64,000 nt of DNA from Akkermansia muciniphila (GTDB taxonomy: Bacteria > Verrucomicrobiota > Verrucomicrobiia > Verrucomicrobiales > Akkermansiaceae), in assembly GCA_945901795.1 (NCBI GenBank), contig CAMDLP010000005.1:29575-93574 (forward strand), in the 5' to 3' direction. Of the stretch, positions 42,924 through 48,775 are shown in pieces. A model generated the notes under the pieces. It had not been told where the DNA came from. It saw only the letters and a program-made list of their open reading frames with translations, and searched no databases. The translations under genes were made by a program, and so were the position numbers. Position 1 is the first letter of the stretch; every line of letters starts with the position of its first letter.

Positions 42924-44741
42924 ATGCCACACAACAGTCATTCCGCCGAACCGGCCCGGCCCGTGATTTACCAGCTCATGATACGCACCTTCGGCAACAC
43001 CAACGAGACCCGCAAAACCAACGGCACGCTCGCGGAGAACGGCTGCGGGAAATTCTCCGACATCACCGGGCCCGCGCTGGTTTCCCTCAAACAGATGGGC
43101 TTCACCCACGTCTGGCTGACCGGCGTGCTGGAGCAGGCGAGCGGCACCGCCTATCCGGGTCGGCCGGCGGATGATCCGGATATTTTGAAAGGCATCGCCG
43201 GCAGTCCATACGCCATCAAGGACTACTTCGACGTCTGCCCGGACTATGCGTTGGACCCCGCGAACCGGCTTGCGGAGTTCGCGGAGCTGGTCGGGCGCTG
43301 CCACGCGCACGAGCTCAAGGTGATCATCGATTTCGTGCCGAACCATGTCGCCCGCTCCTACGCCTCCGATGTGATGCCGCACCTTTCATTCGGCCAGGGC
43401 GACAAGCGCGATGTGTTTTTCGACCGTGACAACCACTTCTACTATCTCGGCTCTAATGACGCGGGTGGCGGTCCTCCGCTCAAGCTGCCGACGGCCGGGA
43501 TGCCGGGCTGCGACGGGAGCTTCGATGGCGAGACGGGTTTCGGCCGGGTCACCGGAAACAACGTGGTTTCCTGGGTGCCATCGATTCACGACTGGTATGA
43601 AACCGTGAAGCTGAACTACGGCCACGATTTCACCCAAGGCCGCGCCACCTCGCATCTGCCCGGCCCGGATGCAGCGCTTTCCGAGGTGCCGAAAACCTGG
43701 CGGACGATGGACGCCATTCTCGCTTACTGGCAGAAAACGGGCGTCGATGGATTCCGCGCCGACATGGCCCACATGGTGCCCATGGAATTCTGGCGCTGGG
43801 CGGTGAAGCGCGCCCGCGCCCGCCAGGCGGATGTGTTTTTCTCGGCGGAGGCCTACGACAACGACCCCGCCAAGCTAACGGACGGTCATGTCCTCGACGA
43901 GCTGCTGCATGCCGGCTTCGACGCGGTTTATGACGATCCGAGCTACGACGTGTTGGAGGGGATTTACGATTCCGGAAAGTGGGCGAACGATCTCGATCCC
44001 CTGACGTTCGCCGGCCCGCGCTTCCACAAATCGCTGCGCTATGCGGAAAATCACGATGAGGTCCGGCTCGCCAGTCTGAAGGAATGGGGCGGGCATGGGA
44101 TGAAGGTCGGCAAGCCGGTTTCCGCCGTGCTGTTCGCGATGGGCCGCGGCGCGGTGATGCTCTATCACGGTCAGGAAGTCGGTGAGCCCGCCGCCGGCGC
44201 GGAAGGTTTCGGCGGCGATGACGCGCGGACCTCGATTTTTGATTACGGGTCGATGCCCGAGTTCGCCAAGTGGGTCAACGGCGGCAAGTTCGACGGCCCT
44301 CGCCTCAGCGACGAACAGAAATCCCTGCGCGAGTGGTATGGCAAACTCATCCGCGCCACCCAGGTCCGCGCCTTCACCGCCGGCGGATTCTACGGGCTCA
44401 ATCACGCCAACAAGGGGAATCCGGAGTTCGGCAGGGTGGGGGACGAGACGGTGTCCGGCCACTGGCTTTACGCCTTCCTCCGCCGCGATTCGCGAACCGG
44501 ACAGGCCTTCCTCGTGGTCGCGAATTTCCACCCATCCGAAACCCTGCGCGGGGTGAAAATCAGCATTCCGCAGGACGCCGTGATGTTCCTCGGTCACTCG
44601 GGCGACGACATCTGGTCCTTCACCGACCGGCTCGATTCCACCTGGTCGGGCTCCGTTCCCCGCAGTCTGTTGGAAACCGAAGGCGTCGCCCTTCCTGAGC
44701 TCGCGCCCTGCTCGGCGCTGCTGTTGGAAATCGGTAAATAG
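42924..44741 (+). CDS. Alpha-amylase family (GH13) glycosyl hydrolase
   Basis: KVIIDFVPNHVARSY; VDGFRADMAHMVPMEFW; FSAEAYDN; YAENHDEVRLAS. Confidence 0.92.
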   Translation: MPHNSHSAEPARPVIYQLMIRTFGNTNETRKTNGTLAENGCGKFSDITGPALVSLKQMGFTHVWLTGVLEQASGTAYPGRPADDPDILKGIAGSPYAIKDYFDVCPDYALDPANRLAEFAELVGRCHAHELKVIIDFVPNHVARSYASDVMPHLSFGQGDKRDVFFDRDNHFYYLGSNDAGGGPPLKLPTAGMPGCDGSFDGETGFGRVTGNNVVSWVPSIHDWYETVKLNYGHDFTQGRATSHLPGPDAALSEVPKTWRTMDAILAYWQKTGVDGFRADMAHMVPMEFWRWAVKRARARQADVFFSAEAYDNDPAKLTDGHVLDELLHAGFDAVYDDPSYDVLEGIYDSGKWANDLDPLTFAGPRFHKSLRYAENHDEVRLASLKEWGGHGMKVGKPVSAVLFAMGRGAVMLYHGQEVGEPAAGAEGFGGDDARTSIFDYGSMPEFAKWVNGGKFDGPRLSDEQKSLREWYGKLIRATQVRAFTAGGFYGLNHANKGNPEFGRVGDETVSGHWLYAFLRRDSRTGQAFLVVANFHPSETLRGVKISIPQDAVMFLGHSGDDIWSFTDRLDSTWSGSVPRSLLETEGVALPELAPCSALLLEIGK

Positions 44742-44750
44742 CGGTCGCTA

Positions 44751-45794
44751 TCAGAGCCGGACCTTCGCGCCGTCGTTCGCCGCGCTTTGATAGATCGCCT
44801 CGATCAGCGCCACGGCTTTCCTCGCCTCGGCCGCCGAGGTGCTAGGCTCGCGGCCCTCGCGGATGGCGGCGACCACCTCCTCGAAATTCCGCTGGTGCTG
44901 GATGGACTGGATCGCCTTCGGGTCGTTCGCGCCGAGCGCCGCTTGGTAGCCGCGCATCAGACTGCCGCGGATCTCGGCGTCGTGGGGCAGTTCGTTTTTG
45001 AAATCCCAGACTTCGAAGGTTTCGTCCGCGAGAAACACCGATCCCTCCGTGCCGCAGATCTGCACGCGCGCCGGGTGGCCGTCCTTCGACCAGCTGCACG
45101 TCGAGCCCTCGATGACGCCGCGCGCGCCGCTCTCGAACTCGAGGATCGCCACGGCCACGTCCTCGACTTCGATGCGCTCGTGCGCCAGGCAGGCGGTGGT
45201 GGCCTGCACCGAACTCACCGGCCCGGCGAGATGAAGCAGCGCGTCGATGGCGTGGATCGCCTGGTTCATCAGCGCGCCGCCGCCGTCGAGCGCCCATGTC
45301 CCGCGCCACGCTGCGGAATCGTAGTAAGCCTGGTCGCGGAACCATTTCACATAACAGGAGGCGGAGACGATTTTGCCCAAGCGGCCGCCGTCGCACGCCG
45401 CTTTGAAGGCGGTCATCGCCGGGTTGAAGCGGCGGTTGAGGATGGCTGCCAGAGTCTTACCACTGGCGGCTGCGGCGGCCGCGAGCTGGTCGATGCGCGC
45501 GCCGGTGATTTCCAACGGCTTCTCGCAAACGACGTGCTTGCCCGCCCGGAGAGCCGCCAGCGCGGGATCGAAATGCGCGCCGGACGGCGTGCCGATGGTG
45601 ACGATTTCCAACTCGGGATCGGCGAGGAAACCGGCGAGCGAGGTGAAGGCTTTCACCCCGTGTTCCGCGGCCAGCGCCTCGGCGCTTTCCGCGCGGTGGT
45701 TGTGAACCGAGTGCAGCGTCCCGCCGCTCATCGCGCGGATCGCCTGCGCGTGGAGGCGGCCGATCGAGCCGGTGCCGATGATGCCGAATTTCAT
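44751..45794 (-). CDS. Gfo/Idh/MocA family oxidoreductase
   Basis: FGIIGTGSIGRLHAQAIRAM; HVVCEKPLEITGARIDQLAAAA; WALDGGGALMNQAIHAIDALLHLAGPV. Confidence 0.94.
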   Translation of the reverse strand: MKFGIIGTGSIGRLHAQAIRAMSGGTLHSVHNHRAESAEALAAEHGVKAFTSLAGFLADPELEIVTIGTPSGAHFDPALAALRAGKHVVCEKPLEITGARIDQLAAAAAASGKTLAAILNRRFNPAMTAFKAACDGGRLGKIVSASCYVKWFRDQAYYDSAAWRGTWALDGGGALMNQAIHAIDALLHLAGPVSSVQATTACLAHERIEVEDVAVAILEFESGARGVIEGSTCSWSKDGHPARVQICGTEGSVFLADETFEVWDFKNELPHDAEIRGSLMRGYQAALGANDPKAIQSIQHQRNFEEVVAAIREGREPSTSAAEARKAVALIEAIYQSAANDGAKVRL

Positions 45795-45846
45795 GGCGCG
45801 ATCCTTGCTGGATCACGGCCCGAGGCCAGCCCAATGTCAGACATCC

Positions 45847-45991
45847 TGATCCGGGCGGAAAATGATTTGGTGCATTCAGCACGTGAAACACGCAGCCGAT
45901 GTGACAACGCGCCACAATGAATGTCGCGGCCGCGACATTCATTGTGGATGGCTTGTGCGTGTATGTGCCAAATCATTTTCCGATTGGATCA
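45847..45991. repeat. Nested inverted-repeat element with 23-bp outer arms and a perfect 36-bp central palindrome
   Basis: GATCCGGGCGGAAAATGATTTGG (45848) / CCAAATCATTTTCCGATTGGATC (45968); CCACAATGAATGTCGCGGCCGCGACATTCATTGTGG at 45912-45947. Confidence 0.9.
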
Positions 45992-46100
45992 TCAAAATCT
46001 CCGAGAGTCGCGAGAGCCGGATGAGGATGCCTGAACGTGGGGCTGAAATCCTGCGGGATGGCGCTTGAAATTTCCGGGGCCGCCCGTCAAAGCAAGCGGC

Positions 46101-46985
46101 GTGAACAAAGCTTTCATCCTCGGCGCCGGGCTCGGCAATCGTCTGCGGCCGCTCACCGGACGCCTGCCCAAGCCGCTGGTGCCGCTGTTTCACCACCCGC
46201 TCGCCGAGTGGGCGATGGCGGCCTGCGCGCGGGTCGGCATCGGGCAATTCGCGATCAACACGCATCATCTTCCCGAAGCGTGGGCAGATTTCGGCGCGGG
46301 AAATGCGGTGACGCTGTTTCATGAACCCGTTCTGCTGGAAACCGGCGGTGGACTGAAAAACATCGCCGCGTGGATGGGAAATGACCCGCTGCTGGTCCAC
46401 AACGGCGACATTTTTTCGACGCTGCCGCTGGAAAAACTCATCGCCGCGCACGAAGCGTCCGGCCTGCCGGTGACGCTGGCGCTGCGCTCGGAGGGCGTCG
46501 CCAAACACATCGCGCTCGATTCCTCCGGCACCCGCGTCACCGACATCCGCAAGTTGCTCGGCAGGGCGGAAGGAACCCACCTCTTCACCGGAATTTACTG
46601 CGTGAGCCCCGCGTTCCTGGACCTGATCCCGGCGGCTGAGAAAATCTCGGTGATCCCGGCATTTCTCGAACTCGCCAAATCCGGCCAGATTGGCGCCATC
46701 GTCCTCGACGAAGGCGTCTGGCTCGACCTCGGCGACCGCGAATCCTACCTGCAGGCGCACCGCGAGCTGGATCTGGCCCCGGCGGTCCACCCGCAAGCGG
46801 TGGTGGCTGGCGCGGTCATCGAGCGGTCCGTCGTCGGCCCCGGTGCGGTGGTGGAATCGGGAGCGGTGGTCCGCGACTCGGTCATCTGGCCCGGCGGGCG
46901 GGTTTCTGCGAACGCGGTTTTGGACCGTTGCATCGTCTTTTCCGCCACCCCGGCCGGAGAAATCCATCAGGACGCCGATCTCTGA
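46101..46985 (+). CDS. NDP-sugar nucleotidyltransferase (GTG start likely)
   Basis: KAFILGAGLGNRLRPLTGRLPKPLVPLFHHPL; LVHNGDIFS; C-terminal hexapeptide-like region. Confidence 0.92.
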   Translation: MNKAFILGAGLGNRLRPLTGRLPKPLVPLFHHPLAEWAMAACARVGIGQFAINTHHLPEAWADFGAGNAVTLFHEPVLLETGGGLKNIAAWMGNDPLLVHNGDIFSTLPLEKLIAAHEASGLPVTLALRSEGVAKHIALDSSGTRVTDIRKLLGRAEGTHLFTGIYCVSPAFLDLIPAAEKISVIPAFLELAKSGQIGAIVLDEGVWLDLGDRESYLQAHRELDLAPAVHPQAVVAGAVIERSVVGPGAVVESGAVVRDSVIWPGGRVSANAVLDRCIVFSATPAGEIHQDADL

Positions 46986-47122: not shown

Positions 47123-48775
47123 ATGACACACATCGAACCATCGACAATACCAAACGCCAAGCGGCTCTTAGCAGCCGGTTTCACCGCCATTCTCGCCGCC
47201 GGCGTCGGATTCGGCATTCGCGGAGGGCTTTTCTCCACCTGGGCCGCCGAGTTTAATTTCACCGGTGCCCAACTCGGCGCGATCGGTGGAGCGGGCTTCA
47301 CCAGTTTCTGCTTCGGCATCATGATCGGCGGGGTGTTTGTCGATAAGATCGGCTACGGCAAGCTGGTCGTCGCCGCCTTCGCGCTGCACGTGCTTTCCGC
47401 ATTCATCACCTTCGGCGCGACCGCCGGGATGGACAACGCGACCGCCTACCAGTTCCTGTTCTGGGGCATGTTCGCCTTCGGTGCCGCCAACGGCACGCTC
47501 GAAGCCGTCGCCAACCCGCTGGTGGCCACCGTCTTTCCGCAAGCCAGGAACCATTATCTCAACATCCTCCACGCCAGCTGGCCGCTCGGCATGGTCGTCG
47601 GCGGTGTCGTCGGCTGGGTGCTTGGCGACACGATGCACGTCGGCTGGAAAGGCCAGCTCGCTTGCTACCTGCTGCCCACGCTCGCTTACGGCGTGATGTT
47701 TTTCGGTCAGAAATTCCCGAAATCGGCCGCCTCCGTCAAGGGCCTGCGGATGGGTGAAATGTTCAAGGACGTCGGCCTGCTCAGCGGCGGTGTCGTCTGC
47801 TTCATGCTTTATCTCTTTTTCAAAGGCACGCTCACTCCGCTTCTCGACGGAAACGTCCAGCTCGCCACCCTTCTCTCCGCCGGCGTCGCCCTCGGACTGC
47901 TCGCTTGGATTGGTGCCATTACCAAGTTCTCCATCGGCCATTGGCTGCTGTTCGTCCTTTTCATCATCCACGCCATGGTCGGCGCGGTCGAACTCGGCAC
48001 CGACGGCTGGATCCAGAACATCACCGGCGCCATCCTGACCCCGACTCAAGGCAAGATCCTCTTCGTCTTCACCTCGTTGTTGATGTTCCTGTTGCGCTTC
48101 TGCGCCCACTTTATCGAGACCCGCATCGGCCTGAAGCCGACCGGGCTGCTCTTCGTTTGCTCGCTTCTCGCCTGCCTCGGTCTGAATCTCGTCAGCGCCG
48201 TGTCCACCTTCGGCCCGGCGCTCGGTGCGTTGCTCGTTTACGCCCTCGGCAAGACCTTCTTCTGGCCCACCATGTTGGCCGTCACCGGCGACCGCTTCCC
48301 GCGCACCGGAGCCATCGCGATGAGCCTCATGGGCGGCGTCGGAATGATGTCCGCCGGCCTGATCGGCGGTCCCGGACTGGGCTATGCCAAGGACCGCTTC
48401 GCTGCCGAGGCGCTGGAGAAGGCGGATTCCGCCATTTACCAAGAGTGGAAGGGCGAGGGCGCGAAGAGCAAGTTCCTGTCCTTTGAGGAAGTCACCGCCA
48501 TCGACCCCGCCCGTCTTGAGGCCGCCAAAGCGGTGGCGGGTGCCAAGAAGGCCGAAGCCTCCGGCCAAACCGTCACCGCCGAGCAGAAAACGCTCGCGGC
48601 GACTCTCACGCCCGCCCAGCAAATCGCCGTGGACGCCGACATCACCGGCAACCGCAACACCCTCAAGGTGGACTCGTTCATCCCTGCAACGATGGCGATT
48701 TGCTTCCTCCTGCTGAGCCTCTATTTCAAGTCGATCGGCGGTTATCGCCCGCTCACGATCGACGAAAAACATTGA
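47123..48775 (+). CDS. MFS transporter
   Basis: About 12 hydrophobic segments, [18 protein letters not shown] loop motif; C-terminal insert before last TM. Confidence 0.88.

Follow-up and report, generated by a model that had tools for sequence, protein, structure and literature searches.

Bacterial MITEs, including Correia/NEMIS, RUP, ERIC and YPAL (reviewed in PMC2229807), are short, non-coding intergenic sequences which are bounded by terminal inverted repeats (TIRs), flanked by a target duplication, able to form a long imperfect hairpin and present in several near-identical copies. This applies to the element described here, too, which lies in a 64-kb stretch of DNA from a draft genome of Akkermansia muciniphila (the whole stretch analysed, referred to as the window). 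It differs from the described MITEs in its own sequence, an AANTT-like 5-bp target, a probably different parent transposase and, additionally, a perfect central palindrome of 36 bp. What was an odd palindrome becomes part of a recognisable mobile-element family.

Members of the IS1634 family, which was split from IS4, carry a terminal C and 5-6-bp AT-rich duplications as the window element does, and ISH3 elements have duplications of 4-5 bp (PMC2266710). RAYT transposases move intergenic palindromic repeats in many bacteria (PMC2817692, PMC3733652). Insertion sequences (ISs) encoding Transposase_29 (PF21804) share with the window element a CAGANNTCNTGATC-type TIR and a 5-bp duplication, and one of them, in genome G349, likewise combines a compact with a long end, both of which contain a CGGAAAATG subterminal repeat. 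These ISs are about 1.8-2.4 kb long and encode a transposase, whereas the window element encodes nothing. In the literature, we found no paper on Transposase_29 elements and none on Verrucomicrobiota MITEs of this type. Pfam names the family only 'Transposase protein'; ends and target duplication can now be given for it.

Extent and structure of the element

Mobile DNA has inserted at the window site with a 5-bp duplication. We are highly confident that the feature is a 196-bp non-coding MITE, inserted with a 5-bp staggered cut, the ends of which are most likely recognised by Transposase_29 supplied in trans. It is short and non-coding, possesses TIRs, target site duplications (TSDs) and an empty counterpart site, occurs in multiple copies and has ends that recur, identical or related, on PF21804 remnants and ISs of other genomes. 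The sequence-only reading had proposed a palindromic mobile element at 45847-45991. Its proposal agrees with the multiple copies, the TIRs, the target duplications and the empty site in relatives, but its boundaries were too narrow: copy homology, target duplications and the empty site place the ends as listed in Table 1.

Table 1. Features of the element and its flanks (window coordinates)
Feature	Position	Strand	Evidence or remark
Gfo/Idh/MocA-type oxidoreductase	44751..45794	-	Pfam PF01408, PF22725; start codon 38 bp from left target duplication
Left target site duplication copy, 5 bp, AATGT	45833..45837	.	AATGT once in empty site of relative G012 (L276)
Whole MITE, 196 bp, compact end left	45838..46033	+	7-copy alignment, TSDs, empty site
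Left terminal inverted repeat CAGACATCCTGATCCGG, compact end	45838..45854	+	Identical 17-nt sequence beside transposase remnants of G015
Left subterminal repeat CGGAAAATGATTTGG, 18 nt from TIR start, putative transposase site	45856..45870	+	Conserved at G349 IS ends
Interior left spacer, 41 nt	45871..45911	.	
Perfect 36-bp palindrome, NotI site central	45912..45947	.	All 18 pairs retained in 7/7 copies
Interior right spacer, 20 nt	45948..45967	.	
Right subterminal repeat CGGAAAATGATTTGG	45968..45982	-	
Long-end-specific insert, ~34 nt	45983..46016	.	Same-position long-end inserts in G015, G073, G349 IS
Right terminal inverted repeat CCGGATGAGGATGCCTG (reverse complement CAGGCATCCTCATCCGG)	46017..46033	-	2 differences vs left
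Right target duplication copy, AACGT	46034..46038	.	One T>C change
Sugar nucleotidyltransferase, likely GTG start at 46101	46101..46985	+	Pfam PF00483

The 17-nt TIRs of the window copy match at 15 positions, and TIRs are present in all six full copies. The element is asymmetric: its compact end is opposed to an end in which the ~34-nt insert separates TIR and subterminal repeat, and the unequal interior arms pointed out earlier (41 and 20 nt) are confirmed. At the centre, CCACAATGAATGTCGCGG is directly followed by CCGCGACATTCATTGTGG, both arms matching at 18 of 18 positions with zero spacer and with the NotI site GCGGCCGC in the middle, exactly as had been read from the letters. By our own estimate, a perfect spacerless palindrome with 18-bp arms is expected by chance about 1e-6 times per 64 kb (64000/4^18). 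The outer inverted repeat reported around it was recovered by a repeat search as an imperfect pair (45847-45878 / 45960-45991; 32 nt, 81%). When positions 45840-46000 were folded as DNA, z was -8.1 and none of 200 shuffles folded equally well; as RNA, the element region folds far better than shuffles, too (z -8.9). The 196 bp contain no ORF of their own, an Rfam search of the element gave no match at E<=1, and a scan for promoters and terminators found none in the element region.

Copies in the genome and in the genus

In the window's own genome (draft, 3.28 Mb, 120 contigs, 95% complete) we found, instead of the single copy which the sequence-only reading had listed among the findings against its proposal, six full copies and a truncated one, seven in total including the window copy. 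Compared with the window copy, the full copies show 92-95% identity, and the earlier description as 'decayed' is mostly wrong. They start with CAGACATCC and finish with GGATGTCTG, or with close variants. The target-site duplications that had been suggested as a check are 5 bp long and perfect at the five other full copies (AGGTT on contig C16, AATTT on C2, AAATT on C35, AAGTT on C10 and AACTT on C1); those of the window copy match at 4 of 5 positions (AATGT/AACGT). Beyond these 5 bp, the flanks of the full copies are unrelated to each other. No long reading frame running across a copy is interrupted; the copies are located between the main frames or extend over what may be the start of a frame. 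Solo or truncated ends were seen at L018:1497-1519 (G000:C2:100739-100761) and in L034 (G000:C53:7114-7160), perhaps remnants of older copies.

Allowing at most one mismatch, the TIR occurs in 13 genomes, including that of the window, out of 73 in the genus; a reversed control pattern gave no match in the genus search. Genome G017 contains about 20 copies of a different MITE of ~187 bp (L053, L058-L074), which has the same first 34 nt and generates 5-bp duplications (AAATG, AAGGG, AATTC). Since these related copies have a base other than T in front of CAGAC, the length of the duplication is 5 bp. A 3-bp duplication (ANT) combined with the TIR TCAGA was rejected, the G017 copies with C or G at this position sharing 5 bp on both sides. 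Further interiors between the same TIRs are found in G073, G091, G024, G022 and G015. Across the family, the compact end consists of the TIR and CGGAAAATGnTTTGGC starting 18 nt in; at the long end, ~32-34 nt are inserted between the two motifs and the second motif starts about 50 nt in. The window element fits this plan, and the asymmetry is common to its relatives and a candidate parent insertion sequence. G015 furthermore holds a 64-bp near-perfect palindrome (L176:2597-2658; G015:C69:134595-134658), which is built from nothing but a pair of outer long ends (TIR + GCACCGCAAATTC...), with AACTT on one side and AACCT on the other. It is a minimal element of the same family.

The insertion site and its empty counterpart

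The divergent genes on both sides of the element are listed in Table 1. An alpha-amylase family gene (42924-44741) adjoins the oxidoreductase and an MFS transporter (47123-48775) follows the nucleotidyltransferase, which gives a sugar-related neighbourhood. The best named matches of the neighbouring gene come from Akkermansiaceae and other Verrucomicrobiota MAGs. At 80 named loci holding the oxidoreductase the nucleotidyltransferase was not alongside, but the genus-wide search did find the pair. Within the genus, G012 and G061 are closest to the window's genome; their nucleotidyltransferases share 95% and 91% identity with that of the window. Both have the divergent gene pair but no element, and their two genes are separated by about 105 and 91 bp, compared to 306 bp in the window. 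If the element is cut out of the window sequence along with one of the two target copies, the remaining 135 bp can be aligned to G012 with no gap, and the junction reads AATGT once; the junction of G061 carries a small deletion. Elsewhere in G012, there is only one diverged partial copy (84% over 95 bp).

Because G012 keeps the gene pair gapless with a single AATGT, the element would most simply have been gained after the split from G012, and one T>C change after insertion would most simply account for the right-hand AACGT. Lack of conservation in close relatives, which the sequence-only reading had held to speak against the feature, is indeed found at this site in G012 and G061, as expected of a recent insertion. 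The element would have entered between the oxidoreductase and nucleotidyltransferase genes by a 5-bp staggered cut at AATGT, a target of the AT-rich, AANTT-like type. The window genome and G012 form a natural before/after pair for the effect of a MITE on a divergent promoter.

The putative parent transposase

PF21804 was detected in 10 of the 73 genomes of the genus. In G015, the exact 17-nt TIR opens DNA in which contigs break; at one of these ends the start of an ORF (MPQLLLPGMPEG...) follows, at the other the final 43 codons of an ORF. Both pieces occur together in L206 of this genome, frame-shifted and deleted. The C-terminal piece of 67 aa matches Transposase_29 with an E-value of 5e-5 (22.1 bits, below the cut-off of 27), and a frame in the G015 genome exceeds this cut-off with 27.9 bits. 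The end of these remnants carries a subterminal repeat similar to that of the MITE. The N-terminal peptide of the ORF matched nothing in 240 genomes of the order and no Pfam family. A full-length IS with the exact TIR was not assembled, the G015 version being fragmentary at contig ends.

Full-length relatives were reached by way of the C-terminal peptide of G015. In G349, a PF21804 gene (5.6e-108) lies between TIRs CAGACTTCCTGATCT matching at 13 of 15 positions. The 5' end of this IS follows the long-end plan and the 3' end the compact plan; the 3' end is identical to the compact end of the window element at 30 of 37 positions, compared to a maximum of 23 in 2000 shuffles. Its flanks do not match and its ORF is disrupted. 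An intact PF21804 ORF of 753 aa was found elsewhere in the phylum, in G470, within a 2.4-kb element (L236:1063-3509, G470:C1) that exhibits a 15-nt TIR CAGATATCTTGATCT and the TSD AGGCT/AGGCT. The PF21804 IS of G025 has the TIR CAGAACACCTGACCT and the TSD GGACA/GGACA. No NCBIfam model matches the PF21804 proteins found, and the G470 element could serve as the type element of an IS family that lacks such a model. A PDB sequence search with the transposase yielded noise only, and a plasmid search gave no match.

A transposase using the same ends, as the sequence-only reading had proposed to look for, was thus found in part: remnants border the identical TIR in G015 and related TIRs flank the ISs of G349, G470 and G025, but no PF21804 gene was detected in the window's own draft genome (95% complete, 120 contigs). 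Because of this, the MITE family looks orphaned there. PF21804 gave no match in G017 either, the genome with the ~20 MITE copies. The interior of the MITE has no evident match within the PF21804 ISs found, which means that the MITE did not arise from one of these by simple internal deletion. The CAGACATCCTGATCCGG ends and the CGGAAAATGATTTGG subterminal repeats are most likely recognition sites to which a PF21804-type transposase would bind. This enzyme probably came in trans from an autonomous IS that the draft genome either no longer contains or does not show assembled, and would have moved the copies of the window's genome.

Alternative explanations

The sequence-only reading had also considered a cruciform regulatory site. 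A cruciform or protein-binding site in the shared promoter would fit the position between two divergent starts, the perfect palindrome and the strong folding potential, but the nearest relatives G012 and G061 keep the divergent pair at a distance of only ~91-105 bp and lack the palindrome, near-identical copies are located at six unrelated places, and a scan of the region detected nothing promoter-like. As it is absent in relatives retaining both genes, an ancestral shared-promoter cruciform is unsupported, and we regard such a regulatory site as very unlikely; the insertion could change the expression of its neighbours secondarily. Still less credible is a REP/BIME-type repeat mobilised by a tyrosine (RAYT) transposase. 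The action of these enzymes on intergenic palindromic repeats in many bacteria (see above) speaks for it, but the TIRs of the element border PF21804 genes and, instead of insertion without target duplication as in REP/RAYT systems, 5-bp duplications are present. Long TIRs with 5-bp target duplications indicate a DDE-type transposase rather than Y1 transposition, and the empty site favours the former, too.

Alternatively it might be that the MITE is moved by another DDE transposase, e.g. of the IS1634 or ISH3 groups, and that the PF21804 ends are similar by common ancestry only. The terminal C of the IS1634 group, the duplication lengths of both groups and the lack of a detected PF21804 gene in the window's genome would agree with this. 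Against it, the exact 17-nt TIR adjoins PF21804 remnants within the same genus, together with a MITE-like subterminal repeat, and the PF21804 proteins, compared by NCBIfam only, match no model and are therefore not named IS1634 or ISH3 members there. We consider this explanation improbable.

Conservation of the central palindrome

Within the MITE, the palindrome stands out by its conservation. Across the seven copies, it shows 2 variable columns of 36, compared to 37 of 159 in the remaining element. These two columns pair with each other, and in two copies both sides changed (G-C to T-A and G-C to C-G). All pair cells of the palindrome are retained (126/126), whereas 90% of the TIR pairs are. 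For the whole structure, the observed number of double-changed pairs was reached by 252 of 500 shuffles. As there are only seven copies, the symmetry hints at palindrome correction or at a hairpin that is needed, but proves neither: the palindrome may be kept symmetric by hairpin-templated correction, or it may be required for mobility.

A further-reaching idea, which we regard as speculative and rather unlikely, is that PF21804 elements and MITEs together would form an undescribed IS family with compound asymmetric ends and that the palindrome would be an active part of the MITE, being extruded and templating its own repair, or forming a hairpin in replication or transposition. The active role is suggested because the arms stay perfectly matched while the copies diverge. 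As a small test set, the copies of the element lend themselves to asking how a perfect palindrome stays symmetric. One copy (L067; G000:C9:55219-55344) is cut no more than about 2 nt from the edge of the palindrome and retains the long-end half and the palindrome itself, as if the palindrome were the point of breakage.
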